64,000 nt of DNA from Oscillospiraceae bacterium (GTDB taxonomy: Bacteria > Bacillota > Clostridia > Oscillospirales > CAG-272), in assembly GCA_015063795.1 (NCBI GenBank), contig SVTL01000003.1, positions 93,328-157,327 of the forward strand, in the 5' to 3' direction. Both the position numbers and the translations under genes were made by a program. Position 1 is the first letter of the stretch, and each line of letters starts with the position of its first letter. This document shows positions 7,509-37,280 of the stretch, in pieces. The notes beneath the pieces are model-generated. The model was not told the origin of the DNA, did not search any database, and saw only the letters and a list, made by a program, of their open reading frames with translations.

Positions 7509-8438
7509 ATGAGAAACCGTTTCTTGCTTGTCTGGATCCTTTTGCTGACGCTTCTTGCCGCCTCCGCCTGCGAAAGAGACCGTCCTGCCTCAAGCGGCCA
7601 AGGGGACGAGACGGCGCCGGAGCCGATCCTTGCTTATACGCATCTTCCGGACGATTTTTTCGAAGCTGCCGAGGGTGAAACGCTTCGCGAGCGTGTGCTT
7701 GCCCGCTTTCGCAAATTGGATGACATTCGATACTTCCTGCCCGAGGAGGCAAAGATCGAGCCGCAGGCAGGCGATCGGTCGCTTCTCCCCGCCTTTTTCA
7801 AGCTGACATCGCTGAATGCCTATCAAACCGGGACACATTGGCCCATGCGTGGCTTGATGTACCGCGCGGACAGCAACACCACCGTAACCGATTTTCTGTA
7901 TGCTCTGGATGAAAACGGTCTGTACACCGGGCCGACGGACGAAGACTATCTCGGCATCAACAGCCTGACCGCCGTTTCCTATGGCTGGAGCGAGATCGAC
8001 CGTGGCTTTGTTGCCAAAACAGCGGAGGATCTGCTGCCGTCCGACACCAATCGGATTGAAAAGGTGGGCGGGTACGAGCTGTTTGACGCTTCCTCCTCGG
8101 CCGAGATCACGGCGAAAAACGGCAAGGACACGATGTTTGAAGCGTACAAGGCGATGAAGCCGGGCGACATCCTTTTGACGTACCAAGAGGGAAGCGCCTA
8201 TGCGTTGTTGGCCGAGCAGGTATATGAAGACAAATTGTCTTTTTACACCTATTATCCGACTTGCTACAATCAGATCGATGGAATACCGACGGGGGTGAGC
8301 GATATGTCGGATTATCTGGGCGTAAATCTGCTTCAGCATTCCCGCAGCGATGGCGGATATGCGCCTAACGATACAACCTTCGACGAGCTGTACGACGGGC
8401 ATTTTATTCCGCTGACGCATGAGGCGCTGGAGAAGTGA
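7509..8438 (+). CDS. Lipoprotein, divergent and probably inactive papain-like family member
   Basis: A 309-residue protein with lipoprotein signal and lipobox ASAC (Cys21). It aligns by eye with the papain-like lipoproteins at 29-37 kb: a central LYTGPTDEDYLG stretch, then FEAYKAMKPGDILL, which matches YEAxALLKxCDLI in them. Where those have G-D-C-G it has G-I-N-S (Asn151, Ser152), and the Q-H-V/I-R motif is replaced by S-A-Y-A. The presumed catalytic Cys and His are therefore gone. The C-terminal beta-rich domain of the family is also absent. A binding role or a decaying gene are both possible. AGAAAGGAGATCGAT precedes the ATG. Confidence 0.78.
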   Translation: MRNRFLLVWILLLTLLAASACERDRPASSGQGDETAPEPILAYTHLPDDFFEAAEGETLRERVLARFRKLDDIRYFLPEEAKIEPQAGDRSLLPAFFKLTSLNAYQTGTHWPMRGLMYRADSNTTVTDFLYALDENGLYTGPTDEDYLGINSLTAVSYGWSEIDRGFVAKTAEDLLPSDTNRIEKVGGYELFDASSSAEITAKNGKDTMFEAYKAMKPGDILLTYQEGSAYALLAEQVYEDKLSFYTYYPTCYNQIDGIPTGVSDMSDYLGVNLLQHSRSDGGYAPNDTTFDELYDGHFIPLTHEALEK

Positions 8439-21272: not shown

Positions 21273-21301
21273 ATTATAGCATAAAAAGTCGGGATTGTCA
21301 A
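21273..21301 (-). promoter_or_regulatory. Consensus promoter of the 19786 gene
   Basis: Minus-strand TTGACA (21296-21301), 17-base spacer, TATAAT (21273-21278): full matches to both consensus boxes, suggesting strong expression. Confidence 0.88.
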
Positions 21302-21401: not shown

Positions 21402-23948
21402 TTATTTGGTGAACGTGAATTGGGAAACGGTCTTCTCTCCGAAGCCGATGGTGGCCTTCAGCTCATAGGTGTACGTGCCGCTCGGCAGGGCTCTGACCGC
21501 GGAGTTCAGCTTGGACATGCCCTGATCGCGGGAGGTATCGGCAGCCGTTCCCTTGGGAGGCGTGGTGGAGACGGTGCTGGTCAGCTTGTGGGAGAGGCTG
21601 TAGGGGTAGACAACCGCTTCCTTGACCACCTTGCCGCTTGCATCGGTGACGGTGGCGTTGATGGCGAAGATGGTGTAATTGCTCTTGACCGTGCCGCGTC
21701 CGACCAGATCGATGCCCTCGGCATAGGAGCCCTTGTCAAAGGTCATGGTGGGCGCTTCCACAACTCCGCTCTTCAGCGTTTTGGTGGTCATGGGGATGTA
21801 GCCGTTCTGGTAGAGCGAAACGAAGGTGTATTTCTGGTTGAGCAGCCAGGTGGTGGACTTGCCCTCGATGTCATAGATGGTGGAGGTCTGCTCGCTGAGC
21901 GTCAGATAGCTCTTGGAGCCCGAGATGACACCGTTGCTGTTGCGGAAGACCACCGCATCCTCCACGGCCATACGGATATGCTGGGAGGTGGAGCTCATGT
22001 TGCCGATGAAGAAGCGGGAGCCCACAAAGTCGCAGGGGCGGACCTGGGCATAGGCCTCATACATCACATCGGGACCGTTGGGCACGCAGATGGCATCGTA
22101 GGTGGAATTATACAGAATGCTGTTTTCGTTTATGTATTTGGAGGTGTTGTATTCACCGACGGTGGCGATGACATCCTTGGTGGCGGGATCGTAGTTGACC
22201 ATCAGCTGGAAGTCCTCGGAATGGATGCCCGAGTTGCAGAGAGCGCCGCCGTAAGCCCAGGCAAGACGCGGAGCGCCGCAGTCAACGCCCATGAGGTACT
22301 CGAAATCGGTCGGACCGGTGTAGACCTTGCTTGCGTTGAGGTAGGGCAGGAATTCGGTGATGGAGGCGGAGGGCTTGCGGGAGGAGGAGTAGGGCATGCC
22401 GGTGTAGGTCTTGCCGCTCTCATAGATCAGACCGGTGGTGAAGGCGGTGGCATCGGTGTAGTCCAGCTTGGAGGGGGCAACCCATTCCACCTGCGACATT
22501 TTGTCGAAGTATTCGATGGTCTTTTCGCGCATCACGTCGGTGTTGGCGGGAACGTCAAAGCCCTCGACGGCGTTGGTCTGGGGAGCGGAGAGCATCTTGA
22601 GCAGGTCGATGACGGTGTGCTTTTTGCCGTTCAGCCGTTCGCCGGCAAGGATCGAGTCATAAACGGCCTTGTACTCATCGCGGGTGTAGGGAGTGGAGCG
22701 GAGACGGTCGATGACATCCTCGGGCAGAGAATCGTCCGCCACCTCATAGGTACGGATCGAGCCGTCAGGCATTTTGATGGAATCAACGCAGGTGATCAGC
22801 GCACAGATCGCCTCGGCGCGCTCGTCAGCCGAGAGACCGTCCTTCGCCTTCATGCCGGAGAGATCGACGGTGGAGGTCTTCGGAGCATACCAGCCCACCG
22901 CGCCGCTGATGTCGTTGATGGCCTTGGTGTACGTGAAGTCGCCGTCGGTGATGGTCAGCGAGGCGGTGCAGTTCTCGTTTTCGAAGCCGCCGCGTCCGCC
23001 CAGATCGATGTCGCCGCGGATGGTACCGCCGTTGATGGTCACGCTGACGTTGCCGTCCACGCGGCCGCCGGTTTGGTAGGAGCCGCCGCCGAGACCGAGC
23101 AGCGTGACGGCATTGCCGCCGAAGGTGACCGTGGAGTTGCCGGTCAGCAGACCGTAGTCGTCGTTCTGCTCATAGCGCTTGAAGCCGACCGTACCGCCGC
23201 AGACATACTGCCAGATGCCGCCGTTGACGGTGACATTGGCGTCGCTTTCCAGATTGTGGAAGCGGTGCGCGGCGGCCAGCAGCGGGAAGTATTTGGCGTT
23301 GGCGGGATCGCTTCCGTCCACCTTGACACCGGCCACATAAGCCTCGGTGGTGAAGGTGTCCTTGAACTGCGTGAGGTAGGTGTTGCAGTGGAAGGTGTAG
23401 TTGATCTCGGTCACGCAGGAGGCACTTTCATGATCGGCACGGAGGATGATGTTTTCCCAGATCGAGCGGCACCACATGGAGGGGGAAAGACGGCTTTTGT
23501 TGATGCGCTTGATGATCAGCGCCGCGTCGTTTTCGGTGCGGTAGTCCACGCCGTTGTAAACGCTGGTAAAGGTGATGGTCTTGGTGGTGTAGGAGTCGGC
23601 GGGACCGATGCGCATCTCCGAAACGGAGGTGTCATTGGCATAGCCCCAGCGAAGGGTGACGGGAGCGCAGACAACGATGGTGCCGCCGGTGTCCTTCAGC
23701 TTGTCAATGGCGCGGTTGACGGCCGATTTGACGTACAGATTCGAGGAAAATTTGCTGGGATCGGAAACGGGATCGGTATAGCCTTCGCCGTGGCCCATGG
23801 GGGAAGAGGGGGAGGAGCCGTCGCCGGTTCCGGTGTCGGAGATGAAGATCACGTTGTCCGCAGCGCTCACCGAGCCGGAGAGGGCGATCAGCGAGGCGGT
23901 GAGGAGCACGAGGGCGATGCAGAGAAAGATTCGAGTCATGTTTTTCAT
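21402..23948 (-). CDS. Secreted beta-helix + papain-like (NlpC/P60-like) protein
   Basis: An 848-residue exported protein, last of an eight-gene tandem set. Signal peptide to about residue 29; beta-helix-like domain about 30-370 with the GTGDGSSPSSPMG opening and a GGTIRGDIDLGGRGGF turn. A linker around 380-470 contains LRSTPYTRDEYKAVYDSILAGE. The papain-like domain runs from about 470 to 760 with MGVDCGAPRLAWAYGGAL (Cys557), YEAYAQVRPCD and SQHIRMAVEDA (His657), then LSEQTST. The last 100 residues form a beta-rich domain ending QFTFTK. Cell-wall peptide cleavage is one option; the target is unknown. No lipobox, so it is released or held otherwise. Confidence 0.8.
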   Translation of the reverse strand: MKNMTRIFLCIALVLLTASLIALSGSVSAADNVIFISDTGTGDGSSPSSPMGHGEGYTDPVSDPSKFSSNLYVKSAVNRAIDKLKDTGGTIVVCAPVTLRWGYANDTSVSEMRIGPADSYTTKTITFTSVYNGVDYRTENDAALIIKRINKSRLSPSMWCRSIWENIILRADHESASCVTEINYTFHCNTYLTQFKDTFTTEAYVAGVKVDGSDPANAKYFPLLAAAHRFHNLESDANVTVNGGIWQYVCGGTVGFKRYEQNDDYGLLTGNSTVTFGGNAVTLLGLGGGSYQTGGRVDGNVSVTINGGTIRGDIDLGGRGGFENENCTASLTITDGDFTYTKAINDISGAVGWYAPKTSTVDLSGMKAKDGLSADERAEAICALITCVDSIKMPDGSIRTYEVADDSLPEDVIDRLRSTPYTRDEYKAVYDSILAGERLNGKKHTVIDLLKMLSAPQTNAVEGFDVPANTDVMREKTIEYFDKMSQVEWVAPSKLDYTDATAFTTGLIYESGKTYTGMPYSSSRKPSASITEFLPYLNASKVYTGPTDFEYLMGVDCGAPRLAWAYGGALCNSGIHSEDFQLMVNYDPATKDVIATVGEYNTSKYINENSILYNSTYDAICVPNGPDVMYEAYAQVRPCDFVGSRFFIGNMSSTSQHIRMAVEDAVVFRNSNGVISGSKSYLTLSEQTSTIYDIEGKSTTWLLNQKYTFVSLYQNGYIPMTTKTLKSGVVEAPTMTFDKGSYAEGIDLVGRGTVKSNYTIFAINATVTDASGKVVKEAVVYPYSLSHKLTSTVSTTPPKGTAADTSRDQGMSKLNSAVRALPSGTYTYELKATIGFGEKTVSQFTFTK

Positions 23949-24003
23949 GGTAAGACTTCCTTATTTTTATAATAATGTTGGTCGAAATCTTGAAGGGGGT
24001 GCT

Positions 24004-26502
24004 TTATCGGGTGAAGTCGAAGCGGGCAACGGTTTTGGTGCCGAAGCCGATGGTGGCGGTCAGCGTGTAGGTATAGCTGCCGCTTGGCAGAGTTTTTGCC
24101 GTTTTGTTGAAAGAAGACATGCCTTGATCACGGGTTCTGTCGGGATCGGCTCCCGAAGTGGGCGTGGTGATGATCTTGGAGATGTCAGACAGGTTAAGCG
24201 AGCAGGTGTAGGGATAAGCGACCGCTTCGGCCACCACCTTGCCGCTTGCATCGGTGATAGCGGCGTTAACGGAGAAGAGAACATAATTGCTCTTGATCGT
24301 GCCGCGGCCGACCAAGTCGATGCCCTCGCTGTAGCTGCCCTTGTCAAAGGTGAGGTCGGGCTTTTCCACCGTCTCACTCTTCAGCGAATGAAGCGTGAGC
24401 GGGATGTAACCGTTGGTGTACAAATTATTGAAGGAGCGCTTTTCGTTGAGGCGCCAGGTGGTCTTTTTGCCATCCACATCGTAAACGGTGCAGGTCTGCT
24501 CGCTGAGGGTGAGATAGCTTCTGACCCCCGAGATGCTGCCGTCCGTGCTGCGGAAGACAGCGGCATCCTTCACAGCCAAAAGGATGTGCTGGTCGGTGGT
24601 GGAGGAGCTGCCCTTGGACCGCTTGACCACGTAATCGCAGGGGCGGATCTGGGCATAAGCCTCGAACATGACCTTTTCGCCGTTGGGCTTGCAGATGCGG
24701 TCAAAGGAGGTGTAGGCATTGATGTCGCTTCCGCTCTTGTAGCCCGACGTGTCATATTCACCCACGGTGGTGATGACCTTGTTGGTCTTATCGTTGTAGT
24801 TGATCATGAACTCAAAATCGGAGGAATACAGGCCGGTGTTGATCAGTGCGCCGCCATAGGCCCAGGCGAGTCTCGGTGCGCCGCAGTCGACGCCCATGAG
24901 ATAGGGGTAGTCGGTCGGGCCGATGTACTGCTTGTTGCCGTTCAGATAGGTGGCAAATTCTTCGATGCTGGTGCTGGGCTTACGGGTGGAGGAATACATC
25001 ATGCCCGTGTAGGTCTGTCCCGCCTCGTAGACCAACTTGGTGGTGAAGGTGGTGGCGGTGCGGTAATCCAGCGTTTTGGGGGTGCTCCATTCCATCTGCG
25101 ACATGCGGTCGAAATAGTCGATGGTTCTCTCGCGCATCACGTCGGTGTTGGCGGGGACGTCAAGGCCTTCCGCACCGTTGGTGGGCTTGGCGCTGAGCAT
25201 GGCAATCAGGTCAAGAACGGAGTGTTGCTTTTCCCCGGCGAGGATGGAGTCATAAACGGCCTTGTACTGCGCACGGGTATAGGGGGTGGAGCGCAGGCGG
25301 TCGATCACAGCCTCGGGAAGCGATATCTCGCCGGCAGAGAAGGTGCGGATCGAGCCGTCCGGCATGAGGACGGAATCGACATAGCTGATCCGTCCGAGCA
25401 GGGCTTCGGCCTGTTCTTGCGGGAGGGCAGAGAGGTCAATCGAAGAAGAGGCGGGTGCATTCCATTTGACGGCCGCATTCACATCGTTGATGGCGGTGAC
25501 GCCTTTGAAATTGCCGCCTGTAACGGTTAAGCGAACGTTGGCGTCGTTGTTTTTGAAGCCGCCGCGGCCGCCCAGATCGATTTCGCCGAAAAGAGTACCG
25601 CCCGTGATGTTAAGGGAGGTATTTCCGTTCAAACGGCCGCCGTCGTGGTAGGAAGCGCCGCCGAGGCCCTCCAAGGTAACGGCGTTCCCGCCGAAGATGA
25701 CAGAGGTGTTGCCTGTGAGGCTTCCGAGCGAATTCTCCTGTTCCCCGTAGGGAAGGCCGATGGTGCCGCCGCAGACATACTGCCAAACACCGCCGTTGAC
25801 GATGAGATTGGTGTCCATGGTGCGGTTGTCCTGTCGGCGGGCGCCGGCGAGAAGCGGGAAGAATCTGGCGTTGGCAGGATCCTTTTCGTCCACTCTGACC
25901 CCGCCCACATAGGCTTCCACGGCAAAGCTTTCCTTGAATTCGGAGCGGTAGCCGGTGCAGAAGAAGGTGAAGTTGTCTTGCGAAACGCAGGAAGCTGATT
26001 CATGCTCAATGCGGAGCGTGATGTTTTCCCATGTCATGGGGCTTTTGGTGACGATGGAAAGAAGGTTTTTGTCGTTGCGCTGCAAAATCAGCTTGGCATC
26101 TGCCGTTTTGCGGTAATCCACGCCGCCGTAAACGCTGGTGACGGTGAAGGGTAGATCGGTTTTTTTGTTATCGGGGCAGACGCCGACCTCATCCGTACCG
26201 GCGGGGTCCTGCTGGGTGGCTCCCCATTTCAGCGTGACGGGGCCGCAGAGGACGACGGTGCCTCCGGTTCCCTGAGCCATCAGCTTGCCCATGGCGCGGT
26301 TGATGGCGGATTTGGAATAAGCACCCTTTTGGAAGGCAGCGTATTCGGGGCCTTCGCCCAAGGGGCTTTCGGGCGAGGAGCCGTCACCGGTGCCGCCATC
26401 GGCGATAAAGACGACGGTCTGTTCGGCATGAGCCGGCAAAAGAGCGGCTGTCAGGCAGGCGAACAAGAGAAACAGACAGAAAAGAAAGACATATTTTTTC
26501 AT
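24004..26502 (-). CDS. Secreted beta-helix + papain-like (NlpC/P60-like) protein
   Basis: An 832-residue paralogue of its two neighbours with the same four-part build: signal peptide, beta-helix-like domain opening FIADGGTGDGSSPESPLG, papain-like domain with MGVDCGAPRLAWAYGG and TDQHILLAVKDA, and a C-terminal beta-rich domain ending RFDFTR. The Cys and His motifs are intact. The H-I/V-R-M pattern becomes H-I-L-L here, the only such change in the array. The ATG at 26502 has AAAGGGA at a proper distance, whereas a TTG at 26511 is too close to it. 55 bases separate it from the next gene. Confidence 0.8.
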   Translation of the reverse strand: MKKYVFLFCLFLLFACLTAALLPAHAEQTVVFIADGGTGDGSSPESPLGEGPEYAAFQKGAYSKSAINRAMGKLMAQGTGGTVVLCGPVTLKWGATQQDPAGTDEVGVCPDNKKTDLPFTVTSVYGGVDYRKTADAKLILQRNDKNLLSIVTKSPMTWENITLRIEHESASCVSQDNFTFFCTGYRSEFKESFAVEAYVGGVRVDEKDPANARFFPLLAGARRQDNRTMDTNLIVNGGVWQYVCGGTIGLPYGEQENSLGSLTGNTSVIFGGNAVTLEGLGGASYHDGGRLNGNTSLNITGGTLFGEIDLGGRGGFKNNDANVRLTVTGGNFKGVTAINDVNAAVKWNAPASSSIDLSALPQEQAEALLGRISYVDSVLMPDGSIRTFSAGEISLPEAVIDRLRSTPYTRAQYKAVYDSILAGEKQHSVLDLIAMLSAKPTNGAEGLDVPANTDVMRERTIDYFDRMSQMEWSTPKTLDYRTATTFTTKLVYEAGQTYTGMMYSSTRKPSTSIEEFATYLNGNKQYIGPTDYPYLMGVDCGAPRLAWAYGGALINTGLYSSDFEFMINYNDKTNKVITTVGEYDTSGYKSGSDINAYTSFDRICKPNGEKVMFEAYAQIRPCDYVVKRSKGSSSTTDQHILLAVKDAAVFRSTDGSISGVRSYLTLSEQTCTVYDVDGKKTTWRLNEKRSFNNLYTNGYIPLTLHSLKSETVEKPDLTFDKGSYSEGIDLVGRGTIKSNYVLFSVNAAITDASGKVVAEAVAYPYTCSLNLSDISKIITTPTSGADPDRTRDQGMSSFNKTAKTLPSGSYTYTLTATIGFGTKTVARFDFTR

Positions 26503-26547
26503 AAAACGCAATCCCTTTTTTAAAAAATTAAAACAGGGGAATGGACG

Positions 26548-29061
26548 TTATTTCTCGAAAGCAAAGCTGCAAACAGTCTTTGTTCCAAACCCGATGGTGG
26601 CGGTCAATTCGTAGGTGTATGTGCCGGAGGGAAGGGCGCGGACGGAGGCATTCAGATCCGACATTCCCTGATCGCGGGAGGTATCGGGGCTTCCGCCGGA
26701 GGGGGTGTTGGTGAGCGCGGAGGGATCGGTCAGCGTGTAGGAGAGGGTGTAGGGGTAGGCAGCGGCCTGCTTGACCACCTTGCCGCTTGCGTTGGTGACG
26801 GTGGCGTTGAGCGCGAAGAGGGTGTAGTTGCTTGTGACCGTGCCGCGCCCGACCAGATCGATGAAGCTGCGGCCCTTGTCATCGAAGGTGAGCGTGGGCG
26901 CTTCCACCGTGTCGGCCTGTAGGGACTTGAGCGTCAGCGGAATGTAGCCGCCGTGGTAGAGAGCGTCGAAGGTGAACTTCTTGTTCAGCTGCCATGTGGT
27001 CTTCTTGCCGTCAACGTCGTAGATGGTGGAGGTCTGCTCGCTGAGCGTCAGATAGCTCTTGGAGCCCGAGATGGCACCGCTGCCGGTACGGTAGACGGCG
27101 GCATCGGCCACGGCCATACGGATGTGCTGGTCGGTGGTGGTCTTCGTGCCGATGAAGAAGCGGGAGCAGACGTAATCGCAGGGGCGGACCTGAGCATAGG
27201 CCTCGTACATCACCTCAGGACCGTTCTTCTCGCAAATGGCGTTGAAGGAGGCCTTGTCGCGGATGTCGGTGTATCCGGTATAGCCGCTGGTGTCATATGT
27301 ACCCACCGTGCCGATGATCCTGTTGGTCGCTTCGTTGTAGTTGATCATCATCTGGAAGTCTCTGGCGTAGATGCCCGAGTTGCAGAGAGCACCGCCGTAA
27401 GCCCAGGCAAGCCGCGGCGCGCCGCAGTCCACACCGATGAGGTACTTGTACTCGGTGGTGCCGGTATACACCCCGTTTTCGGTGAGATAGGGCATGAATT
27501 CGAGGATGGAGGCGGAGGGCTTGCGGGTGGAGGAATAGGGCATGCCCGTGTAGATCTGACCGGCCTTGTAGACCAGCTTGGTGGTGAAGGCGGTGGCTGT
27601 TGTGTAGTCCATGTCGGTCTTGGGTGTCCATTCGATGCGCGACATGGCATCGAAATAGTCAATGGTCTTTTCGCGCATCACGTCGGTGTTGGCGGGAACG
27701 TCAAAGCCGGCAACGCTGTTGGTGGGTTTGGCAGAAAGCATGTTCATAAGCTCCAGAACGTTGTATTGGTTTTCGCCTGCGAGGATGGAATCGTAGACGT
27801 CTTTGTATTGCTTGCGGGTGTAGGGAGTGGAGCGCAGGCGCTCGATGACCGCCTCGGGGAGAGGCTCATTCTCAACGAAGAAGGTGCGGACGCTGCCGTC
27901 CGGCAATTTGACGGAATCGACATAGGTGATCTTACGGCAGAGAGCCTCGGCGCGCTCCATGGCGGATTGCTCGGCGTTGGCCTTCAGGCCCGTGCAGTCA
28001 ACGGTGGCGGATTTGGGCGAATGCCAGCCGGCCGAACCGCTGACATCGTTGATGGCGGTGGTGTTGTCAAAATTGCCGCCTGTGATGGTCAGCGAGGCGA
28101 TCGATTCGGTGCCGTCAAAGCCGCCGATGCCGCCGATGCTGATGTCGCCGTAGACCGTACCGCCGGTGATGGTCAGCGAGGTGTTGCCGGTGATGCGGCC
28201 GCCGTTTTTGTAAGAGCCGCCGCCGATGCCCTCGATGGTGCGGGCGTAGCCGCCGAAGACGACGGTGGTGCTGCCGGTCAGAATGCCGTACTTGTTGTCG
28301 TTTTCGCCGTAGGCAAAGCCGACGCATCCGCCGCAGACGTATTGCCATTTGCCGCCGTTGACGGTGAGCGAGGGATTGCCGGTGACGCTTTTATAGCGGT
28401 GTCCGCCGGTCAGCAGGGGGAAATAGTAGGCGTTGTCGGTGTCGCGGTAGTCGAGGCTGACGCCGTTCAGATAGGCTTCGGTCTCGAAGGTGGTCGAAAA
28501 CACGGTCTTATACGCGTTGCAGGAGAACGAATAGTTGACCGCGGTCACGCAGGAGGCGGTCTTGTGGTTGGCGCGGAGCGTGATGTTTTCCCAGACCGAG
28601 GGGCATTTCATCTCCGGCGAAAGGCGGTTGTTGCTGTCCCGCTCCACGATCAGCGCGGCGTTTTTGGTCGTGCGGTAGTCGATGCCGTTGTAAAGCGAGG
28701 TGAAGGTGACGGTTTTGGACATGGAGCCCGTCCCCGGGCCGATGGGGAGTTCGGAGGCGCCTGTGCCCTGCAGCTTGCCCCACTTGAGGGTGACCGGACC
28801 GCAGACGACAACCGTACCGCCGGTCTTCTTCAGCTTGTTGATCGCTTGGTTGAGCGAGGAGTACTGATAGGCGGTGGAGGTAAAGGTGCTGTAGCCCGAA
28901 GCATTGCCCAGAGGCTTGTCGGGGGAAGAACCGTCGCCTGTTCCGCCGTCGGCGATGAATACCACATGGTCCGCAGCAGAGACCGACGCCGATGCGGCAA
29001 GCAGCGAAGCGCCGATCAAAAGAATGGCGGCAGCGAGTAAAGTGAGTGTTCTTTTTTTCAT
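26548..29061 (-). CDS. Secreted beta-helix + papain-like (NlpC/P60-like) protein
   Basis: An 837-residue paralogue. Signal peptide to about residue 29, then FIADGGTGDGSSPDKPLG and a beta-helix-like part with GGTVYGDISIGGIGGF turns. The linker has LRSTPYTRKQYKDVYDSILA. The papain-like part reads IGVDCGAPRLAWAYGGAL, YEAYAQVRPCD and TDQHIRMAVADA, then LTLSEQTST. The beta-rich tail ends CSFAFEK. It stands between the lipoprotein-type members (27 bases downstream of the 29089 gene) and the other two large ones, so the array shifts here from short lipidated to long non-lipidated forms. Confidence 0.8.
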   Translation of the reverse strand: MKKRTLTLLAAAILLIGASLLAASASVSAADHVVFIADGGTGDGSSPDKPLGNASGYSTFTSTAYQYSSLNQAINKLKKTGGTVVVCGPVTLKWGKLQGTGASELPIGPGTGSMSKTVTFTSLYNGIDYRTTKNAALIVERDSNNRLSPEMKCPSVWENITLRANHKTASCVTAVNYSFSCNAYKTVFSTTFETEAYLNGVSLDYRDTDNAYYFPLLTGGHRYKSVTGNPSLTVNGGKWQYVCGGCVGFAYGENDNKYGILTGSTTVVFGGYARTIEGIGGGSYKNGGRITGNTSLTITGGTVYGDISIGGIGGFDGTESIASLTITGGNFDNTTAINDVSGSAGWHSPKSATVDCTGLKANAEQSAMERAEALCRKITYVDSVKLPDGSVRTFFVENEPLPEAVIERLRSTPYTRKQYKDVYDSILAGENQYNVLELMNMLSAKPTNSVAGFDVPANTDVMREKTIDYFDAMSRIEWTPKTDMDYTTATAFTTKLVYKAGQIYTGMPYSSTRKPSASILEFMPYLTENGVYTGTTEYKYLIGVDCGAPRLAWAYGGALCNSGIYARDFQMMINYNEATNRIIGTVGTYDTSGYTGYTDIRDKASFNAICEKNGPEVMYEAYAQVRPCDYVCSRFFIGTKTTTDQHIRMAVADAAVYRTGSGAISGSKSYLTLSEQTSTIYDVDGKKTTWQLNKKFTFDALYHGGYIPLTLKSLQADTVEAPTLTFDDKGRSFIDLVGRGTVTSNYTLFALNATVTNASGKVVKQAAAYPYTLSYTLTDPSALTNTPSGGSPDTSRDQGMSDLNASVRALPSGTYTYELTATIGFGTKTVCSFAFEK

Positions 29062-29088
29062 AAAAAGGTATTCCTGTTTCGGTTTGTT

Positions 29089-30348
29089 TTACTTGGTGAA
29101 ATCGAATTCGGCAACGGTCTTTTCTCCGAAGCCGATGGCGGCAACGGCCTTAAAGCGATAGGTTCCGGCCGGAAGATCCCGAACGGGGGTGGAGAGGGGA
29201 TAATCGGAGAGGATCGCGGTCAGCGCATAAGGGTAGCCGACAAAGGAGGAGACGACGTTCCCTTGCGCGTCGGTGATCTCGGCGGTCAGCGTAAGGATGT
29301 TGTAATTGCACTTGACCGTGCCCTTGAGCACAGGGGAGGAGGCAAAGTTTTCGGGCTTGCTGAAGCCGGAGGCGGTCATGTCCGGGGGCGTGACGGTTTC
29401 GTTTTTCAGCGAAGCGATGGTCATCGGAACGTAACCGTCCTTGAACAGCTGCTGGAAGGTTTCCTTCACGTTCAGCTTCCAGGTGGTCTTTTTGCCGTCG
29501 ATGGTGCGGACATAAGAGGTCTGCTCGCTGTAGGTAATGTAGCTCTTGGAGGGAGCGATCTTGCCGTTGCCCAAACGGACCACGGAGGCATCCTCCACCA
29601 GCATGCGCACGTGCTGTGCGATGATGCCGTTGAGTTGGAAGCGGGAGCCGATCAGGTCGCAGGCTTTCAGGAGCGCCATGGCCTCATACATGGTTTCCTC
29701 GCCGTTGACCGTCATGATGGAGTCATACGTGGCGGTGTCATGCGTGAAGGCGCTGTCGTCGTATTCCCCCACCTTTTCGGTCACAACGGGAAGTCCTCTG
29801 CGGAGGCTTTCCTTCGGGAACATCTCGAAATCGGCATATTGCATCCCATAGCCGCACAAAGCGCCGCTGTAAGCCCAGGCGCGTCTCATGGAGCCGCAGT
29901 CGCCTCCCACCAGATTCTTGAAATCGGTGGGGCCGGTGTAGAGACCGTCGGCATTCAGATAGCTTTGAAATTCCTCCAGCGAAGCAGCGGGGTGGCGGGA
30001 AGAGGTGTAAGGAATGCCGTAGTAGGTCTGTCCCTTTTCGTAAACAAGATGGGTGGTCCATTTGGAGGATGCCGTATAATCCATCGTCTCGGGGGCGATC
30101 CACTTGACCGCGGACATGGCGTTGAAGTATTCGATGGTGCGCTGTCTCACCTCGTCCATGGAAGCGGGGACATCGAAGGCATCTTCCTCAAGGGGCGCGG
30201 CGTTTTCAGACGCGGCGTTTTCAGGCGCGGCCGTTTGCTCGGCGGCGGGGGTGGATCCGTCGGCGGGATCGGCAGGTTCGGCGGGCGAGCAGGAGGAAAT
30301 CAGCGCGGCAGCCAAAAGGACCGCAAAGCTCCATACAAATCGTTTCAT
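29089..30348 (-). CDS. Papain-like (NlpC/P60-like) lipoprotein
   Basis: A 419-residue lipoprotein: lipobox ISSC (Cys20), Ala/Pro/Glu-rich linker to about 55, papain-like domain about 62-310, beta-rich C-terminal domain about 320-419. Key residues by eye: Cys151 in GGDCGSMRRAWAY, MALLKACDLIG near 225, His246 in AQHVRMLVEDA and Gln276 in YITYSEQTS. The end reads AEFDFTK, like most members. It should sit on the outer face of the membrane. AGGAGTTCAACC precedes the ATG at 30348. It is 27 bases from the large 26548 gene and 70 from the 30419 gene. Confidence 0.82.
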   Translation of the reverse strand: MKRFVWSFAVLLAAALISSCSPAEPADPADGSTPAAEQTAAPENAASENAAPLEEDAFDVPASMDEVRQRTIEYFNAMSAVKWIAPETMDYTASSKWTTHLVYEKGQTYYGIPYTSSRHPAASLEEFQSYLNADGLYTGPTDFKNLVGGDCGSMRRAWAYSGALCGYGMQYADFEMFPKESLRRGLPVVTEKVGEYDDSAFTHDTATYDSIMTVNGEETMYEAMALLKACDLIGSRFQLNGIIAQHVRMLVEDASVVRLGNGKIAPSKSYITYSEQTSYVRTIDGKKTTWKLNVKETFQQLFKDGYVPMTIASLKNETVTPPDMTASGFSKPENFASSPVLKGTVKCNYNILTLTAEITDAQGNVVSSFVGYPYALTAILSDYPLSTPVRDLPAGTYRFKAVAAIGFGEKTVAEFDFTK

Positions 30349-30418
30349 GGTTGAACTCCTTTTTACAGCACAGCGCCGCGGCCAAAATGAAGACCTCGGC
30401 GTTGTGATGAAAATGATG

Positions 30419-31675
30419 TTATTTGGTGAAATCGAATTCGGCAACCGTCTTGGTACCAAAGCCGATGGTGGCGGTCACCTTGAAGTGGTAGTCACCGCTC
30501 GGAAGCTCCTTGACGGGCGTGGACAGCGCATGCTCGGAGAGGATGACCTTCATCGAATAGGGATAGATCTTCATATGGCTGGCGACATTGCCGTCCTTGT
30601 CGGTGATGGTGACCTCGGTCTCAAAGATGTTGTAGTTGCACTTGATCGTACCCTTCAGCATGGGAGAGGAGGCGAAGTTTTCGGGCTTGCTGAAGCCGGA
30701 GCCCTCCATTTCGGGCTGGGTGACCTCAGACTGCTGAAGCGTGACGGTGGACATGGGGATATAGCCGTCCTTCAGCAGGTCGGTGAAGGAGATCTGCTGG
30801 TTGAGCAGCCAGGTGGACTGCTTGCCGTCCACGGTATGAACGGTGGAGGTCTGCTCGCTGAAGACGATGTAGCTCTTGGCGGGCGCGATCTTGCCGTTGC
30901 CGAGACGCATGACGGTGGCATCCTCCACCAGCATACGCACGTGCTGAGCCACCGAGCCGCCCGACAGCTTGAAGCGGGCGCCGATCAGATCGCAGGACTT
31001 GAGCAGGGCATAGCTTTCATACATGACATCGGCATCGTTGTGAGCGATGACGCACTCGTTGGTGGTGGTGTTCTTGGCGAAGTGGCTGTCGTCGTATTCG
31101 CCCAGCTTCACGAGAACGGGCTGCTTGTTGTCGTATGTATTTTCATAAACGAACATTTCCCAATCGTCGAAGGTCATGCCGAAGCCGCAGATGGCACCGC
31201 CCCAGGCCCAGGCTCTTCTCATCGAGCCGCAGTCGCCGCCGATCAGCTGGCGGTATTCGGTGGGGCCGGTGTAAACGCCCTTGGCGTCCAGATAGGTCTC
31301 AAATTCGGACAGACCCACGCCCGGATCGAGGTAGGTGGAGTAGGGCAGACCGTAGTAGGTGCGTCCCTTTTCGTAGATCAGCTTGGTGGTCCAGGGGCAG
31401 TCATCGGTATAATCCATGCGCTCGGGCGCGATCCATTTGACCGCAGACATGGCGTCGAAGTATTCGATGGTCTTCTTGCGGATGCCGTCCATATCGGCAG
31501 GGACAATAAAGGGATTTTCCTCGATGGGGGCAGCGGTGGTCTGCTCGGGAGCGGGGGATCCTTCTTCCGCAGAGGGGGTGGATCCGTCCGTGCCGGGAGC
31601 AGGCTCGGCGGGGGTGCAGGCGGCAATGGCCGCGATCAGCGCAAAGGCGAGAAGCAAAAGCAAGGTTTTTTTCAT
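30419..31675 (-). CDS. Papain-like (NlpC/P60-like) lipoprotein
   Basis: A 418-residue paralogue with lipobox IAAC (Cys20), Thr/Pro/Glu-rich linker, GGDCGSMRRAWAWGGAI (Cys149), YALLKSCDLIGARF, AQHVRMLVEDA (His245), YIVFSEQTST and a beta-rich tail ending AEFDFTK. An extra Cys in DDCPWTTKLIY is shared with the 33061 and 35924 genes, and in position with the 34381 gene (SCPWTT). Spacing to the next gene is 66 bases. AGGAAAGGAACCCA precedes the ATG. Confidence 0.82.
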   Translation of the reverse strand: MKKTLLLLLAFALIAAIAACTPAEPAPGTDGSTPSAEEGSPAPEQTTAAPIEENPFIVPADMDGIRKKTIEYFDAMSAVKWIAPERMDYTDDCPWTTKLIYEKGRTYYGLPYSTYLDPGVGLSEFETYLDAKGVYTGPTEYRQLIGGDCGSMRRAWAWGGAICGFGMTFDDWEMFVYENTYDNKQPVLVKLGEYDDSHFAKNTTTNECVIAHNDADVMYESYALLKSCDLIGARFKLSGGSVAQHVRMLVEDATVMRLGNGKIAPAKSYIVFSEQTSTVHTVDGKQSTWLLNQQISFTDLLKDGYIPMSTVTLQQSEVTQPEMEGSGFSKPENFASSPMLKGTIKCNYNIFETEVTITDKDGNVASHMKIYPYSMKVILSEHALSTPVKELPSGDYHFKVTATIGFGTKTVAEFDFTK

Positions 31676-31741
31676 TGGGTTCCTTTCCTCCGGAATGTTG
31701 AATGGGATATGGTGGATTCAGGTGTTTTGAGGACCTGTCGG

Positions 31742-32998
31742 TTATTTGGTGAAATCGAATTCGGCGATGGTTTTGGTGCCGAAGCCGATGGTGGCGGTGG
31801 CCTTGAGGTGGTAATCGCCGGCGGGAAGCTCGGAAACGGGAGTGGAGAGGGTCAGCTCGGAGAGGGTGGCTTTCAGCGCATAAGGATAATTTTTGACGTG
31901 AGAAACCACATTGCCGTCCTTGTCGGTGACGGTGATCTCGGTTTCAAAGATGTTGTAATTGCACTCAACCGTTCCCTCCAGCACAGAAGAGGAGACGAAC
32001 GATTCGGGGGTGCTGATGCCGGAGGCGGTCATAACGGGCTTGGTGACCTCGGTCTGCTGCAGGGAAGCGATGGACAGGGGAACATAGCCACCGCTCAACA
32101 GCGTGGAGAAGGAGACCTGCTCATTGAGCAGCCAGGTGGTGTTCTTGCCGTCCACGGTGCGCATGGTGGAGGTCTGCTCGCTGTAGGTGATGTAGCTCTT
32201 GGAGGGGGCGATCTTGCCATTGCCCAGGCGGAAGACCTCCGCATCCTTGACCAGCATTCTCACGTGCTGCGTACACCCTTTTGAGGTGGCCGTGATGCGG
32301 AAGCGGGAGCCGATCAGGTCGCAGGATTTGAGCAGGGCATAGCTTTCATACATCACCTCGGGCTCATTATAAGCCATCACGCATTCAACGGAGGGGATAT
32401 CGTCCACGAAGTGACTGTCGTCATAAGAACCGATCTTGACAATGGCGGGCTGTTTGTTGTTCATGATGTTTTTGTAAACGAACAGTTCCCAGTCCTCAAG
32501 CTTCATGCCGAAGCCGCAGAGAGCACCGCCATAGGCCCAGGCTCTGCGCATGGAGCCGCAGTCGCCGCCGATCAGATCTTTGTACTCCAGCGGGCCGTTG
32601 TAAACGCGCTTTTCGTCAAGGTAATCCTCAAATTCGCCCAACGAGACACCGGGCTGGCGACGCGAGCTGTAGGGCAGACCGTAATAGGTGCGGCCTTTTT
32701 CATACACCAGCTTGGTGGTGATGGCGCTGGACTGGGTATAGTCCATGCGGGTGGGTGCGACCCATTTGACGTTTGCCATGGCTTCAAAGTATTCGATGGT
32801 CTTCTGACGGATGCCGTCCATGTCGGCAGGGACATCAAAGGGATCTTCCTCAATGGGAGCGGCTGTGGTCTCGGGTGCAGCGGTCTGCTCAGATGCAGGG
32901 GCGGATCCGCCGGCGGGATCGGCAGGCTCGGCGGGAGCACAGGCGGCAATCGCCGCGATCAAGGCAAAGGTAAGAAGCAGAAGCAGAGCTTTTTTCAT
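31742..32998 (-). CDS. Papain-like (NlpC/P60-like) lipoprotein
   Basis: A 418-residue paralogue: lipobox IAAC (Cys20), GGDCGSMRRAWAYGGAL (Cys147), YALLKSCDLIGSRF, a CTQHVRMLVKDA variant (His245), YITYSEQTST, tail AEFDFTK. It has a short insert rich in Thr/Ser ahead of the His motif (RITATSKGC). The ATG at 32998 follows GGAGGAAACCATC; a start five codons upstream would take in the ribosome site. Its signal peptide is almost the same as that of the 30419 gene, a sign of recent duplication. Confidence 0.82.
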   Translation of the reverse strand: MKKALLLLLTFALIAAIAACAPAEPADPAGGSAPASEQTAAPETTAAPIEEDPFDVPADMDGIRQKTIEYFEAMANVKWVAPTRMDYTQSSAITTKLVYEKGRTYYGLPYSSRRQPGVSLGEFEDYLDEKRVYNGPLEYKDLIGGDCGSMRRAWAYGGALCGFGMKLEDWELFVYKNIMNNKQPAIVKIGSYDDSHFVDDIPSVECVMAYNEPEVMYESYALLKSCDLIGSRFRITATSKGCTQHVRMLVKDAEVFRLGNGKIAPSKSYITYSEQTSTMRTVDGKNTTWLLNEQVSFSTLLSGGYVPLSIASLQQTEVTKPVMTASGISTPESFVSSSVLEGTVECNYNIFETEITVTDKDGNVVSHVKNYPYALKATLSELTLSTPVSELPAGDYHLKATATIGFGTKTIAEFDFTK

Positions 32999-33060
32999 GA
33001 TGGTTTCCTCCAAAATGTGAATGGGATATCACAGAAGCCGGCGTTTTGACGCGCAGCTGC

Positions 33061-34317
33061 TTATTTGGTGAAGTCGAATTCGGCAACGGTCTTTTCTCCG
33101 AAGCCGATGGTGGCCGTGGTCTTGAAATGGTAATTGCCGGCGGGCAGCTCCTTGACAGGGGTGGAGAGCTGGATCTCGGAGAGCATGACCTGCAGGTCGT
33201 AGGGATAGACCTTGGCATGGCTGACCACGTTTCCGCTTTGATCGGTGATGGTGATCTCGGTCTCAAAGATGTTGTAATTGCACTTGATGGTGCCCTTTAA
33301 AACAGGGGAGGAGGCGAAGTTTTCGGGCTTGCTGAAGCCGGTGGCGGTCATGTCCACGGGATCGGGCGCATCCTTTTCCATGGAGATCAGCCTCAGCGGG
33401 ATGCAGCCCTTGTTATAGAGGTCGGTGAAGGACATGACCTCGTTTAACACCCAGGTGGTCTTCTTGCCATCGATGGTGCGGATGGAAGAGGTTTGCTCGC
33501 TGAAGGTGATGTAGCTTCTGGAGGGGGCAATTTTGCCGTTGTTCAGGCGGAACACCGTCGCATCGTCCACGATCATGCGGATATGCTGAGCGATCTGCCC
33601 GTTGGTGGAAAGGGTGAAGCGGTAAGCGATGATGTCGCAGGCCTTCAGCTGAGCATAGGCTTCATACATCACCTCGGTGCCGTTGACCTCATTGATGTTG
33701 TTGAAGGTGGGAGTTGAGGAGGAGAATTGGCTGTCATCGTAATGTCCCACTTTTGTGGTGGCAATTTTGTTGCCGGGACGGCTGAAGCCGGGAATCATCT
33801 GAAAATCCTTCCCCTGCATACCGAAGCCGCAGAGAGCGCCGCCGTAAGCCCAGGCGCGTCTCATCGATCCGCAGTCGCCGCCGATCAGCTCACGGTATTC
33901 GAGCGGACCTTTGTAAACGCTTTTGTCGTCGAGATAATCCTCGAATTCGGCCAGCGACACACCGGCGCGGTAGGTGGAGTAGGGCAGCCCGTAATAGGCT
34001 TGTCCTTTTTCGTAAACCAATGTGGTGGTCCAGGGGCAGTCGTCTTTGTAATCCATGGTCTCGGGCGCGATCCACTTGACTTCGGACATGGCGTTGAAGT
34101 AGTCGATGGTCTTCTTGCGGATGCCCTCCATGTCGGACGGGACGTCAAAGGGATCTTCCTCAACGGGCGCGGCCGTGGTGTCAGGCGCGGCTGCGGTGTC
34201 GGGTGCGGTGGATTCTTCCGCTGCAGGGGCGGATCCGTCGGCGGGATCGGCAGGCGAGCAGGCGGCAACCATGGCGATCAATGGGAAGGTGAGAAGCAGA
34301 AGCAAGGCTCGTTTCAT
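33061..34317 (-). CDS. Papain-like (NlpC/P60-like) lipoprotein
   Basis: A 418-residue paralogue: lipobox VAAC (Cys20), Ala/Thr/Pro linker, GGDCGSMRRAWAYGGAL (Cys149), YAQLKACDIIAYRF, AQHIRMIVDDA (His245), YITFSEQTSS, tail AEFDFTK. Its last 130 or so residues are nearly the same as those of the 34381 protein, and the DNA there is near identical at an offset of exactly 1320 bases, while the middle differs more. That pattern fits recent duplication or gene conversion limited to the 3' half. Confidence 0.82.
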   Translation of the reverse strand: MKRALLLLLTFPLIAMVAACSPADPADGSAPAAEESTAPDTAAAPDTTAAPVEEDPFDVPSDMEGIRKKTIDYFNAMSEVKWIAPETMDYKDDCPWTTTLVYEKGQAYYGLPYSTYRAGVSLAEFEDYLDDKSVYKGPLEYRELIGGDCGSMRRAWAYGGALCGFGMQGKDFQMIPGFSRPGNKIATTKVGHYDDSQFSSSTPTFNNINEVNGTEVMYEAYAQLKACDIIAYRFTLSTNGQIAQHIRMIVDDATVFRLNNGKIAPSRSYITFSEQTSSIRTIDGKKTTWVLNEVMSFTDLYNKGCIPLRLISMEKDAPDPVDMTATGFSKPENFASSPVLKGTIKCNYNIFETEITITDQSGNVVSHAKVYPYDLQVMLSEIQLSTPVKELPAGNYHFKTTATIGFGEKTVAEFDFTK

Positions 34318-34380
34318 AAGGATGACCTCCGAAAGGTGACCGAGGAAACGGTGAAAGCAGGCGCTTGTATGTACGGCTGC

Positions 34381-35628
34381 TTATTTGGTGAAGTCGAATT
34401 CGGCAACAGTCTTGGTACCGAAGCCGATGGTGGCCGTGGTTTTGAAATGATAGTTTCCGGCGGGCAGCTCCTTAACGGGGGTAGAGAGCTGCACCTCGGA
34501 GAGCATGACCTGCAGGTTATAGGGATAGACCTTGGCATGGCTGACCACGTTTCCGCTTTGATCGGTGATGGTGATCTCGGTCTCGAAGATGTTGTAATTG
34601 CACTTGATGGTGCCCTTGAGAACGGGGGAGGAGGCGAAATTCTCGGGCTTGCTGAAGCCGGTGGCGGTCATGTCCACGGGATCGGGCGCATCCTTATCCA
34701 TGGAGATCAGTCTCAGCGGCATATAGCCCTTCTGGTAGAGGTCGGTGAAGGACATGGTCTCGTTTAACACCCAGGTGGTCTTCTTGCCGTCGATCTCACG
34801 GACGGTGGAGGTCTGTTCGCTGAAGAGGATGTAGCTCTTGGCGGGCGCGATCTTGCCGTTGCCCAGACGGACCACCGTCGCATCGTCCACCACCAAGCGG
34901 ATGTGCTGACCGATCTTGCCGTTGGAGGCGAGCACGAAGCGGTGGGCAATGATGTCGCAGGCCTTCAGCTGAGCGTAGGCCTCATACATCACATCGGTGC
35001 CGTTGACCTTGTTGGTGTTGTCAAAGGTGGTGGTGTCATCGGAATATTGGCTGTCGTCGTAGTTGCCCAGCTTTATCGTACCCACCTTCTGGCCGGCCTT
35101 GGTGTGTCCGGGGATCATCTGGAAGCCCAGCTGCATCGGCAGGTCGCACAGAGCACCGCTCCAACCCCAGGCGCGTCTCATCGATCCGCAGTCGCCGCCG
35201 ATCAGGTTTTTGTATTCCAAAGGCCCTGTGTAAACGTTTTTGGCGTTGAGATAGTCCTCGAATTCGGCCAGCGAAACGCCGGAGCGGTCGGAGGAATAGG
35301 GCAGACCGTAGTAGGTCTGGTTGCGGTCATAGACCAGCGTGGTGGTCCAGGGGCAGGACTTGGTGTAGTCCATCTTTTCGGGGGCAACCCACTTGACGGC
35401 AGACATGGCGTTGAAGTATTCGATCGTTCTTTGGCGGATCTCGTCCATGGTCTTGGGCTCGTTGAAGGGATTGACCTCCGCAGCCGCGGCAGTGGTCTCT
35501 TCAGAGAGCGTGGTCTCGGTGACATCGGGCGAAAGCGTCTCGTCTCCTGAGGAGGGCTCGGTGCCGTTGCAGGAAGCGAGGACAAGCGCCAGCGAAAGAG
35601 TGAAAACAAGCAGTGTGATTTTTTTCAT
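34381..35628 (-). CDS. Papain-like (NlpC/P60-like) lipoprotein, promoter-proximal
   Basis: A 415-residue paralogue and the first gene after the promoter at 35693-35721. Lipobox LASC (Cys20), Thr/Glu-rich linker, GGDCGSMRRAWGWSGAL (Cys147), YAQLKACDIIAHRF, GQHIRLVVDDA (His242), YILFSEQTST, tail AEFDFTK. Its C-terminal third is shared almost unchanged with the 33061 gene. No strong terminator was found between this gene and the 21402 gene, so eight genes may lie on one transcript of about 14 kb. Confidence 0.82.
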   Translation of the reverse strand: MKKITLLVFTLSLALVLASCNGTEPSSGDETLSPDVTETTLSEETTAAAAEVNPFNEPKTMDEIRQRTIEYFNAMSAVKWVAPEKMDYTKSCPWTTTLVYDRNQTYYGLPYSSDRSGVSLAEFEDYLNAKNVYTGPLEYKNLIGGDCGSMRRAWGWSGALCDLPMQLGFQMIPGHTKAGQKVGTIKLGNYDDSQYSDDTTTFDNTNKVNGTDVMYEAYAQLKACDIIAHRFVLASNGKIGQHIRLVVDDATVVRLGNGKIAPAKSYILFSEQTSTVREIDGKKTTWVLNETMSFTDLYQKGYMPLRLISMDKDAPDPVDMTATGFSKPENFASSPVLKGTIKCNYNIFETEITITDQSGNVVSHAKVYPYNLQVMLSEVQLSTPVKELPAGNYHFKTTATIGFGTKTVAEFDFTK

Positions 35629-35692
35629 GATCAGAATCCTCCTAAAAACGCAGGCAGAGGGGACAATTTCCCATGCTTAAAGATACACAGCA

Positions 35693-35721
35693 AGTATACC
35701 ATTTTTTCAGTGGACAGTCAA
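35693..35721 (-). promoter_or_regulatory. Promoter of the eight-gene papain-like array
   Basis: Minus-strand TTGACT (35716-35721), 17-base spacer, TATACT (35693-35698), 65 bases ahead of the 34381 gene. No comparable promoter was seen in the short gaps inside the array. Confidence 0.78.
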
Positions 35722-35856
35722 GAACTTTTTGGTGGTTTTCCCCTCTACCGAACGATGTTTTTTTCTTAAATATTAAATGAAGAAAAAAGAATGAACAGGC
35801 TGTGACCGACCGCATACCGTCTTTTCAAAAACCGTTTGCATCTTGCTTTGCGCAAA

Positions 35857-35897
35857 GCAAAAAAAGGACCGCCGTGCGGGAAAGAGCACAGCGATCC
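35857..35897 (-). terminator. Intrinsic terminator after the 35924 gene
   Basis: Minus strand: GGATCGCTGTGC pairs over 12 positions (with G-T pairs) with GCACGGCGGTCC, then seven T. It separates this gene from the array promoter. Confidence 0.9.
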
Positions 35898-35923
35898 GTT
35901 TGTTTTTTTGTCGGGGAAAGGCC

Positions 35924-37201
35924 TTATTTTTTGAAATCGAAGTTGGCAACGGTCTTTTCGCCGAAGCCGATGACGGCATTGAGCTTGAAATGGTAGTCGC
36001 CGGCGGGCAACTCCTTGACGGGCATCGAAAGCTCGATCTCCGAGGCGAGCGCGCTCAGCCCGTAGGGGTAATACTTACCGGAAGAAACGGTGTTGCCGTC
36101 CTTGTCGGTGATGACCGCCTCCAGCTTGAAGATGTTGTAATTGCACTTGACCGTTCCCTTCAGCACGGGGGAGGTGCCAAAATTCTCGGGCTTGCTGAGA
36201 CCGGTGACCGTCATCTCCACGGGGGTGACCGTTTCGGTCTGCAGCGAAACGATGGACATGGGGATGTAGCCCTTGGAATAGAGGTCGGTGAAGGAGATCT
36301 GCTGGTTGAGCAGCCAGGTGGTCTTTTTGCCGTCGACCGTGTGGACGGTGGATGTCTGCTCGCTGTAGGTCAGATAACTCTTGGAGGGTGCGATCTTACC
36401 GTTGCCGAGGCGGTAGACGGTGGCGTCGTCCACGATCAGCTGGATGTGCTGGGCGATGGTACCGCCCGAGAGCTTGAAGCGGTGGCCGATGAAGTCGCAG
36501 GCCTTCAGCTTGGCATAGCCCTCGTAGAGAGCTTCGGCTTCGTTGTGACCCATGATGCACTCAAAGGTGGGAATTTTTTCATCAAAGTGGCTGTCGTCGT
36601 AGTCGCCGACCTTGACGATGACCGGCTGCTTGTTTTCCTTGATGTTCTGCCCCACGAAGTATTCCCACACGTCGTAGGTCATGCCGTAGCCGCAGAGAGC
36701 ACCGCCGTAGGCCCAGGCACGTCTGGGCGAGCCGCAGTCGCCGCCGATCAGCTTTTTGTATTCCAGAGGCCCTGTATAAACACTCTTGGCATCCAAGTAG
36801 TCGGTGAATTCTTCAAGGCCGACACCGGGCTGGATGTAGGTGCTGTAAGGAAGACCGTAGTAGGTCTGATTCTTGTCGTAGACCAGCTTCGTGGTCCAGG
36901 GGCAGTCGTCGCGGTAGTCCATGGTTTCGGGTGCGATCCACTTGACTGCGGACAGCGCATTGAAATAGTCGATGGTCCGTGCGCGCACCTCGTCCATGGT
37001 CTTGGGCACATCAAACGAGTCGTTCCCGAACGTGCCGTTGCCCGAGGCGGAGGGAGAAGCGGTCTCAACCGACTCGGCGGCAGCAGACTCGGTGCTTTCG
37101 GCGTCGGTGCTTTCGGCGTCGGCGGCGGGGGTGTTTGTGCCGCAGGCGGAAAGGGCGAGCGCGAGCAGAATGGACAGAAGAAATAGGGTGATGTTTTTCA
37201 T
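35924..37201 (-). CDS. Papain-like (NlpC/P60-like) lipoprotein, own transcription unit
   Basis: A 425-residue paralogue with lipobox LSAC (Cys20) and a longer Ser/Thr/Glu-rich linker with a repeated AEST. GGDCGSPRRAWAYGGAL (Cys156), YAKLKACDFIGHRF, AQHIQLIVDDA (His252), YLTYSEQTST; the tail ends ANFDFKK. It has its own promoter (37252-37280) and strong terminator, so it can be controlled apart from the eight-gene set. The ATG at 37201 begins the signal peptide; the longer frame upstream would overlap the promoter. Confidence 0.82.
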   Translation of the reverse strand: MKNITLFLLSILLALALSACGTNTPAADAESTDAESTESAAAESVETASPSASGNGTFGNDSFDVPKTMDEVRARTIDYFNALSAVKWIAPETMDYRDDCPWTTKLVYDKNQTYYGLPYSTYIQPGVGLEEFTDYLDAKSVYTGPLEYKKLIGGDCGSPRRAWAYGGALCGYGMTYDVWEYFVGQNIKENKQPVIVKVGDYDDSHFDEKIPTFECIMGHNEAEALYEGYAKLKACDFIGHRFKLSGGTIAQHIQLIVDDATVYRLGNGKIAPSKSYLTYSEQTSTVHTVDGKKTTWLLNQQISFTDLYSKGYIPMSIVSLQTETVTPVEMTVTGLSKPENFGTSPVLKGTVKCNYNIFKLEAVITDKDGNTVSSGKYYPYGLSALASEIELSMPVKELPAGDYHFKLNAVIGFGEKTVANFDFKK

Positions 37202-37251: not shown

Positions 37252-37280
37252 ATTTTACCATATCGGCAGGCATTTGTCAA
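37252..37280 (-). promoter_or_regulatory. Promoter of the 35924 gene
   Basis: Minus-strand TTGACA (37275-37280), 17-base spacer, TAAAAT (37252-37257). Confidence 0.78.

Follow-up and report, generated by a model that had tools for sequence, protein, structure and literature searches.

A probable expanded, uncatalogued branch of the NlpC/P60-CHAP superfamily in a tandem array of exported proteins from an Oscillospiraceae genome

An array of nine exported proteins

We analysed a 64,000-nucleotide stretch of contig SVTL01000003.1 from an Oscillospiraceae bacterium (hereafter, the window), in which nine consecutive genes code for related exported proteins. These array proteins appear to be an uncatalogued and strikingly expanded branch of the NlpC/P60-CHAP superfamily. 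The first-pass annotation of this DNA had suggested a possible new surface system; a new kind of system it is not. The proteins form one family with signal peptides, their motifs stand in register with those of NlpC/P60 domains, and their structural elements follow one another as in papain-like enzymes. The array arose through local tandem duplication within its lineage, and the fold of the shared core is very probably papain-like.

The array consists of nine open frames on the minus strand, running from 37201 down to 21402. Long plus-strand frames across it were rejected as antisense shadows of the real minus-strand genes. The genes are as follows (Ig-like, immunoglobulin-like):

35924..37201, minus strand: array gene 1, lipoprotein of 425 residues, NlpC-like core and Ig-like C-terminal domain, lipobox LSAC
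34381..35628, minus strand: array gene 2, lipoprotein of 415 residues, short form, lipobox LASC
33061..34317, minus strand: array gene 3, lipoprotein of 418 residues, short form
31742..32998, minus strand: array gene 4, lipoprotein of 418 residues, short form
30419..31675, minus strand: array gene 5, lipoprotein of 418 residues, short form
29089..30348, minus strand: array gene 6, lipoprotein of 419 residues, short form, reference protein for residue numbering
26548..29061, minus strand: array gene 7, long form of 837 residues, N-terminal glycine-rich repeat domain, core and Ig-like domain
24004..26502, minus strand: array gene 8, long form, ATG at 26502 with the frame open from TTG at 26511
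21402..23948, minus strand: array gene 9, long form of 848 residues

The tandem array of related exported proteins proposed earlier was borne out, as phmmer matched the other eight proteins to the 29089-30348 protein with expectation (E) values of 1e-168 to 3e-92. The six short forms (415-425 residues) all carry the lipobox that had been noted in six members, at residues 17-20 (LSAC, LASC, VAAC, IAAC, IAAC and ISSC). The three long forms (about 835-848 residues) possess an ordinary signal peptide without a lipobox, and a further domain at the N-terminus, about 400 residues long, in which glycine repeats abound. Start-to-start distances were 1573, 1311, 1319, 1323, 1327, 1287, 2550 and about 2560 bases, the interval to gene 8 being 2550 bases, or 2559 if counted from its ATG to the previous start. 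The periods of about 1.32 kb (short forms) and 2.55 kb (long forms) read by the first-pass annotation thus hold for every interval but the first, of 1573 bases.

Placement in the NlpC/P60-CHAP superfamily

Scans against Pfam, NCBIfam, PHROGs and PADLOC yielded no catalogued family for the array proteins. The NlpC/P60 family PF00877 (curated cut-off 23 bits) matched only contig C23 of the same genome and not the array, and was absent from the 25 Pfam families listed for 66 family members. In one paralogue, the hidden Markov model of the CHAP family, PF05257, scored 20.9 bits (E 9e-4, calculated for a single genome), short of its curated cut-off of 26 bits, and it gave a single match among the 66 members (E 0.02).

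A core profile built from a 66-sequence alignment was compared by hhalign with 20 NlpC/P60 domains found in genomes of this order and scored 29.7 (E 5e-4), against a maximum of 19.5 and a mean of 12.3 in 60 column shuffles and 14.2 for the reversed alignment. The full alignment placed GxPY on GxPY, GxDCS on GfDCSG, [GA]D on GD and H on H. Against CHAP the core scored 21.9 (null maximum 15.6), whereas NlpC/P60 scored 53.9 against CHAP, which makes the array family the more distant branch. A search of the core profile against the PDB at E < 10 returned one chain, the NlpC/P60 protein 8er5, with Cys and His in register but at a non-significant E of 1.6. UmuD-like PDB matches obtained with a single array protein disappeared once profiles were used.

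AlphaFold2 modelled the mature protein with a mean predicted local distance difference test (pLDDT) score of 96.1, and the core alone with a mean of 96.0. The core was modelled separately because Foldseek results for the whole mature protein were dominated by matches to the Ig-like domain, and the order of elements along the chain was the evidence used. In the core model, Cys is residue 90, directly ahead of helix 93-100; Asp170, corresponding to Asp231 of the reference protein, stands at the start of strand 171-178; His185 lies within strand 181-189; and Gln215 lies on the following strand, 209-222. Papain-like cluster II enzymes are described with the same succession of elements: a helix with Cys at its start, then the Asp strand, the His strand and the strand of the third residue (PMC10318531). 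The structure prediction recommended at the outset gave papain-like element order at a pLDDT of 96 but no confident whole-fold match. The NlpC/P60-type core first guessed from motifs is supported by the profile score relative to shuffles, the element order of the model, the weak CHAP match and the joint loss of Cys and His described below.

Proposed active-site residues

The residues on which catalysis would depend map to the following codons:

29896..29898, minus strand: Cys151 of array gene 6, proposed nucleophile
29611..29613, minus strand: His246 of array gene 6, proposed catalytic base
29521..29523, minus strand: Gln276 of array gene 6, proposed third residue, Gln in 103 of 112 domains
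30007..30009, minus strand: Tyr114 of array gene 6 (in GxPY), proposed oxyanion-hole Tyr, aligned with the Tyr of NlpC/P60 GxPY

The shared motif order was found as originally described, and Cys151, Asp231, His246 and Gln276 (numbering of the 29089-30348 protein) are invariant in a 29-copy alignment of the family in this genome; the motif pattern was scanned in a closer set, the 29-copy alignment being too divergent. Among 112 domains, Cys and His were both present in 108 and both lost in four, with no single loss. The corresponding Fisher value (2e-7) ignores relatedness and is a guide only. The four domains lacking both residues belong to three proteins in separate places of the tree. The Asp of the GD motif was present in all 112 domains, and the Gly preceding it was often Ala, Ser or Cys. 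Outside the 103 domains with Gln, the third residue was occasionally Asn, Ser or His, or else was lost in degenerate copies. The earlier idea that this Gln may complete the active site is supported by its position one strand beyond that of His and by a solved Cys-His-Gln precedent, the RflaF_05439 module of Ruminococcus flavefaciens (PDB 4EYZ, as cited in PMC10318531), whose site consists of Tyr71, Cys109, His215 and Gln230 (PMC3573020).

Copy number, duplication history and distribution

The family extends well beyond the nine genes, so that the array recognized at first was correct but incomplete. The whole genome (2.16 Mb) contains 29 intact and two degenerate copies: besides the array, four intact and one degenerate in the window, 15 intact and one degenerate on contig C28, and one intact on contig C3. 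The further copies in the window are:

56191..57411, minus strand: family member, lipoprotein
57454..58932, minus strand: family member, lipoprotein with a long TTAAPA linker
58998..60185, minus strand: family member, lipoprotein
60272..61477, minus strand: family member, lipoprotein
7509..8438, plus strand: degenerate family member, Cys to Ser and His to Tyr, Asp231 kept

The TTAAPA linker is coded by an 18-base unit repeated 12.3 times (58555-58775), and its length may vary among strains.

On a tree of 108 cores, the nine array members form one clade with a Shimodaira–Hasegawa-like approximate likelihood ratio test (SH-aLRT) value of 97, adjoining a protein from another genus, but several contig C28 members cluster with proteins of other genera. 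Both old paralogues and a local burst thus contribute to the copy number. The Ig-like domains of genes 2 and 3 are far more alike than their cores (protein identity 96% versus 71%, DNA identity 92% versus 78%, synonymous divergence [dS] 0.29 versus 0.59), which suggests domain-wise conversion. The ratio of nonsynonymous to synonymous divergence (dN/dS) was 0.3-0.6 in the cores of array pairs, indicating that the genes are maintained as functional. No relatives were detectable among viral contigs, plasmids or phages, and a mobile or phage origin of the family was set aside as unsupported.

At a threshold of E 1e-8, matches were found in 21 of 395 genomes and 13 of 71 genera sampled from the taxonomic family. 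The order sample gave matches in 14 of 394 genomes; the phylum sample (398 genomes) gave this genome, one weak partial match and no others. Mapping genomes with multiple copies, as had been advised, showed that the number of core matches in a genome ranges from 1 to about 48 among related Clostridia. Seven genomes of three genera had 48, 26, 31, 28, 21, 19 and 12, and 1-7 were counted in each of nine further genomes, among them sisters of the one with 48; these counts score all candidates, count multi-core proteins repeatedly and come mostly from incomplete genomes. The relatives are uncultured, metagenome-assembled Clostridia, many of them herbivore-gut bacteria; where a source was stated it was goat, sheep, yak or rabbit. 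Comparison of fifteen neighbourhoods by reading found no conserved gene neighbourhood.

Location and architecture of family members

We assigned export classes to 113 sampled proteins or fragments by a simple rule: 61 were lipoproteins and 20 had another signal or a membrane segment. About 20 complete relatives had neither signal peptide nor membrane segment, so not all members work outside. The outward orientation proposed for the array is supported for its nine proteins and does not extend to these relatives elsewhere.

Signal-less relatives include bare 238-residue cores and proteins of two or three consecutive cores, and they often share a gene run with lipoprotein forms (loci L093, L066, L068 and L069). 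L066, L068 and L069 (genomes G120, G206 and G062) share the same order of lipoprotein, signal-less bare core (238-240 residues) and lipoprotein, and L093:409-13183 contains eleven consecutive family genes, seven without a signal peptide and four coding for lipoproteins. Proteins with two or three tandem cores occur at L102, L103, L097, L098 and L101; at L102 and L097, Cys and His are missing from one or two of these cores. Two adjoining members at L095:276-3933 have a C-terminal dockerin (Pfam E 2e-10 and 3e-11), which places the core in outside, cellulosome-like complexes. A relative at L091 combines the core with a glycine-rich domain and a C-terminal membrane helix (partly by eye).

Proposed function and alternatives

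We consider the array proteins to be, somewhat more probably than not, exported cysteine hydrolases (peptidases or amidases) whose copies differ in their target outside the cell, the substrate being the weakest part of the proposal. Cys151 is predicted to be the attacking nucleophile, with His246 activating it, Gln276 orienting His246 and Tyr114 helping to build the oxyanion hole; the triad geometry and the activity are what we infer. The six short forms would be tethered as lipoproteins and the three long forms secreted, with an N-terminal domain that may bind a polymer. Copies would differ in the outside peptide or amide bond that they cut, in dietary, host or other bacterial polymers, and a role in growth of the cell's own wall would be the disfavoured alternative.

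Several observations weigh against this proposal. For the core, Foldseek reached no better than E 0.16 in the PDB, which gives no confident match; staphopain, vasohibin and a CHAP-bearing synthetase are among the weak ones. The top BFVD match along the entire core, a CHAP protein, was likewise weak (template modelling score 0.45 by target, E 0.05). Protease activity could not be detected for the RflaF_05439 module (PMC3573020). The signal-less relatives count in the same direction.

The first alternative, unlikely in our judgement, is that the proteins are peptidoglycan hydrolases that cut stem peptides of the cell's own or rival walls, like NlpC/P60 D,L-endopeptidases. Peptidoglycan is the substrate of those NlpC/P60 members of the superfamily that have been tested (PMC10318531, PMC3573020), such enzymes are commonly anchored as lipoproteins, and the genome itself has only one PF00877 match. 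However, Pfam scans of the 66 members and of the fusion proteins found no wall-binding module such as SH3b or LysM, the dockerin and glycine-rich-domain fusions point outward, and a housekeeping role is unlikely because related genomes differ so widely in copy number, with anything between 1 and about 48.

It is quite improbable that these are surface transferases in which the thioester is resolved by an amine or hydroxyl, cross-linking or acylating surface polymers as transglutaminase- or LRAT-like enzymes would. Transglutaminases and enzymes that act on lipids do belong to papain-like cluster II (PMC10318531), and a lipid tether to the membrane would fit, but Cys stands ahead of His rather than in the permuted LRAT/YiiX order, and no transglutaminase family matched. 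We hold it to be just as improbable that the proteins are contact-dependent weapons against neighbouring bacteria, expanded in an arms race. Rapid tandem expansion in several separate genera and the sign of domain-wise recombination in genes 2 and 3 would suit such a role; mildly against it, no immunity-like gene or constant partner was seen beside the arrays in the fifteen neighbourhoods read, and there was no PADLOC match of weight and no plasmid or phage match. Least probable of all is an enzyme scaffold kept mainly for binding, with expansion serving surface variation: four degenerate domains persist despite having lost both Cys and His, but both are kept in 108 of 112 domains and Gln in 103.

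If the array proteins are exported hydrolases, a broader and speculative view, which we rate as improbable though worth stating, is that herbivore-gut Clostridia possess an enzyme system of their own, in which tens of diversified outside NlpC-like hydrolases act jointly with signal-less sisters whose genes lie in the same runs. Such a system would be to the breakdown of proteins or peptides what expanded uptake loci are to sugars in other gut bacteria. The family adds an uncatalogued member to the NlpC/P60 superfamily, and its genes make up about 3% of a small genome. Because its expansion in gut bacteria is repeated and lineage-bound, a substrate important in that habitat is suggested. The short lipoproteins combine small size with ease of expression, and the naturally occurring copies that lack Cys and His offer built-in controls.

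Putative transcription signals and neighbouring genes

The following features flank the array genes:

37252..37280, minus strand: promoter-like site of array gene 1, TTGACA-17-TAAAAT, 11/12 matches, extended -10
35866..35897, minus strand: terminator-like hairpin 3' of array gene 1, 12 pairs followed by TTTTTTT
35693..35721, minus strand: promoter-like site of array gene 2, TTGACT-17-TATACT, extended -10
21273..21301, minus strand: promoter-like site of the stand-alone domain gene, TTGACA-17-TATAAT, 12/12 matches, extended -10
19786..21216, minus strand: stand-alone N-terminal domain gene, Thr/Pro-rich linker and C-terminal membrane helix, without the catalytic core

Promoter-like matches over the region were barely in excess (eight, versus 5.1 in shuffled sequence), but the three sites with 10-12 of 12 matches fall exactly in gaps between genes. 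Since the gaps between genes 2-9 are only 27-70 bases, these eight genes are likely to form a single transcript, a putative operon.

The stand-alone domain gene lies directly downstream of the array, behind a perfect sigma-70-like promoter, and its domain is 42% identical to the N-terminal domain of array gene 9. Repeats of the long-form N-terminal domain resemble a right-handed beta-helix; profile searches gave no confirming match. By reading, the neighbours of the array are housekeeping genes, leuCD on one side and addAB-like helicase-nuclease genes on the other. As neighbourhoods also differ among genomes, the array seems self-contained.

Elsewhere in the window, a large multidomain protein (45530-48394, minus strand) has BACON and Listeria-Bacteroides repeat matches with weak C39-like peptidase and dockerin matches, and may represent a second kind of papain-like peptidase within an outside protein. 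The gene at 48737-50152 (minus strand) codes for a lipoprotein that Pfam assigns to the endonuclease/exonuclease/phosphatase family (E 8e-17). The product of 50195-52063 (plus strand) has an N-terminal membrane helix and, by eye, the phosphatase-like signature HCLAGADRTG. A weak C-terminal dockerin match at 63111-63956 (minus strand) hints that the genome may have dockerin-cohesin complexes.

Comparison with known systems

YiiX/LRAT proteins belong to the same superfamily but are circularly permuted, with Cys near the C-terminus, whereas the array family has Cys ahead of His. CHAP (PF05257) provides the best whole-length BFVD match and the 20.9 bits in one paralogue, but is below its curated cut-off and weaker by profile than NlpC/P60 (21.9 versus 29.7). 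With NlpC/P60 (PF00877) the array family shares the motifs GxPY, xxxCS, [GA]D and H, which agree in both order and register, and the helix-strand order of the model. It differs in length (about 260 residues in the core versus about 110 in the NlpC/P60 domain), with about 25 extra residues from the Tyr of GxPY to Cys and about 42 from Cys to Asp, in having Gln rather than His as third residue, and in escaping the PF00877 scan of its own genome.

RflaF_05439, although not recovered from the PDB by the core profile at E 10, is likewise an NlpC/P60-type Cys-His-Gln protein, with tandem modules and a dockerin (PMC3573020). Its Tyr-to-Cys spacing is 38 residues versus 37 in the array family, and Cys-to-His spacing is long in both (106 and 95, respectively), whereas His-to-Gln spacing is 15 in RflaF_05439 and 30 in the array family. 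RflaF_05439 is one gene; the array family numbers tens of copies.

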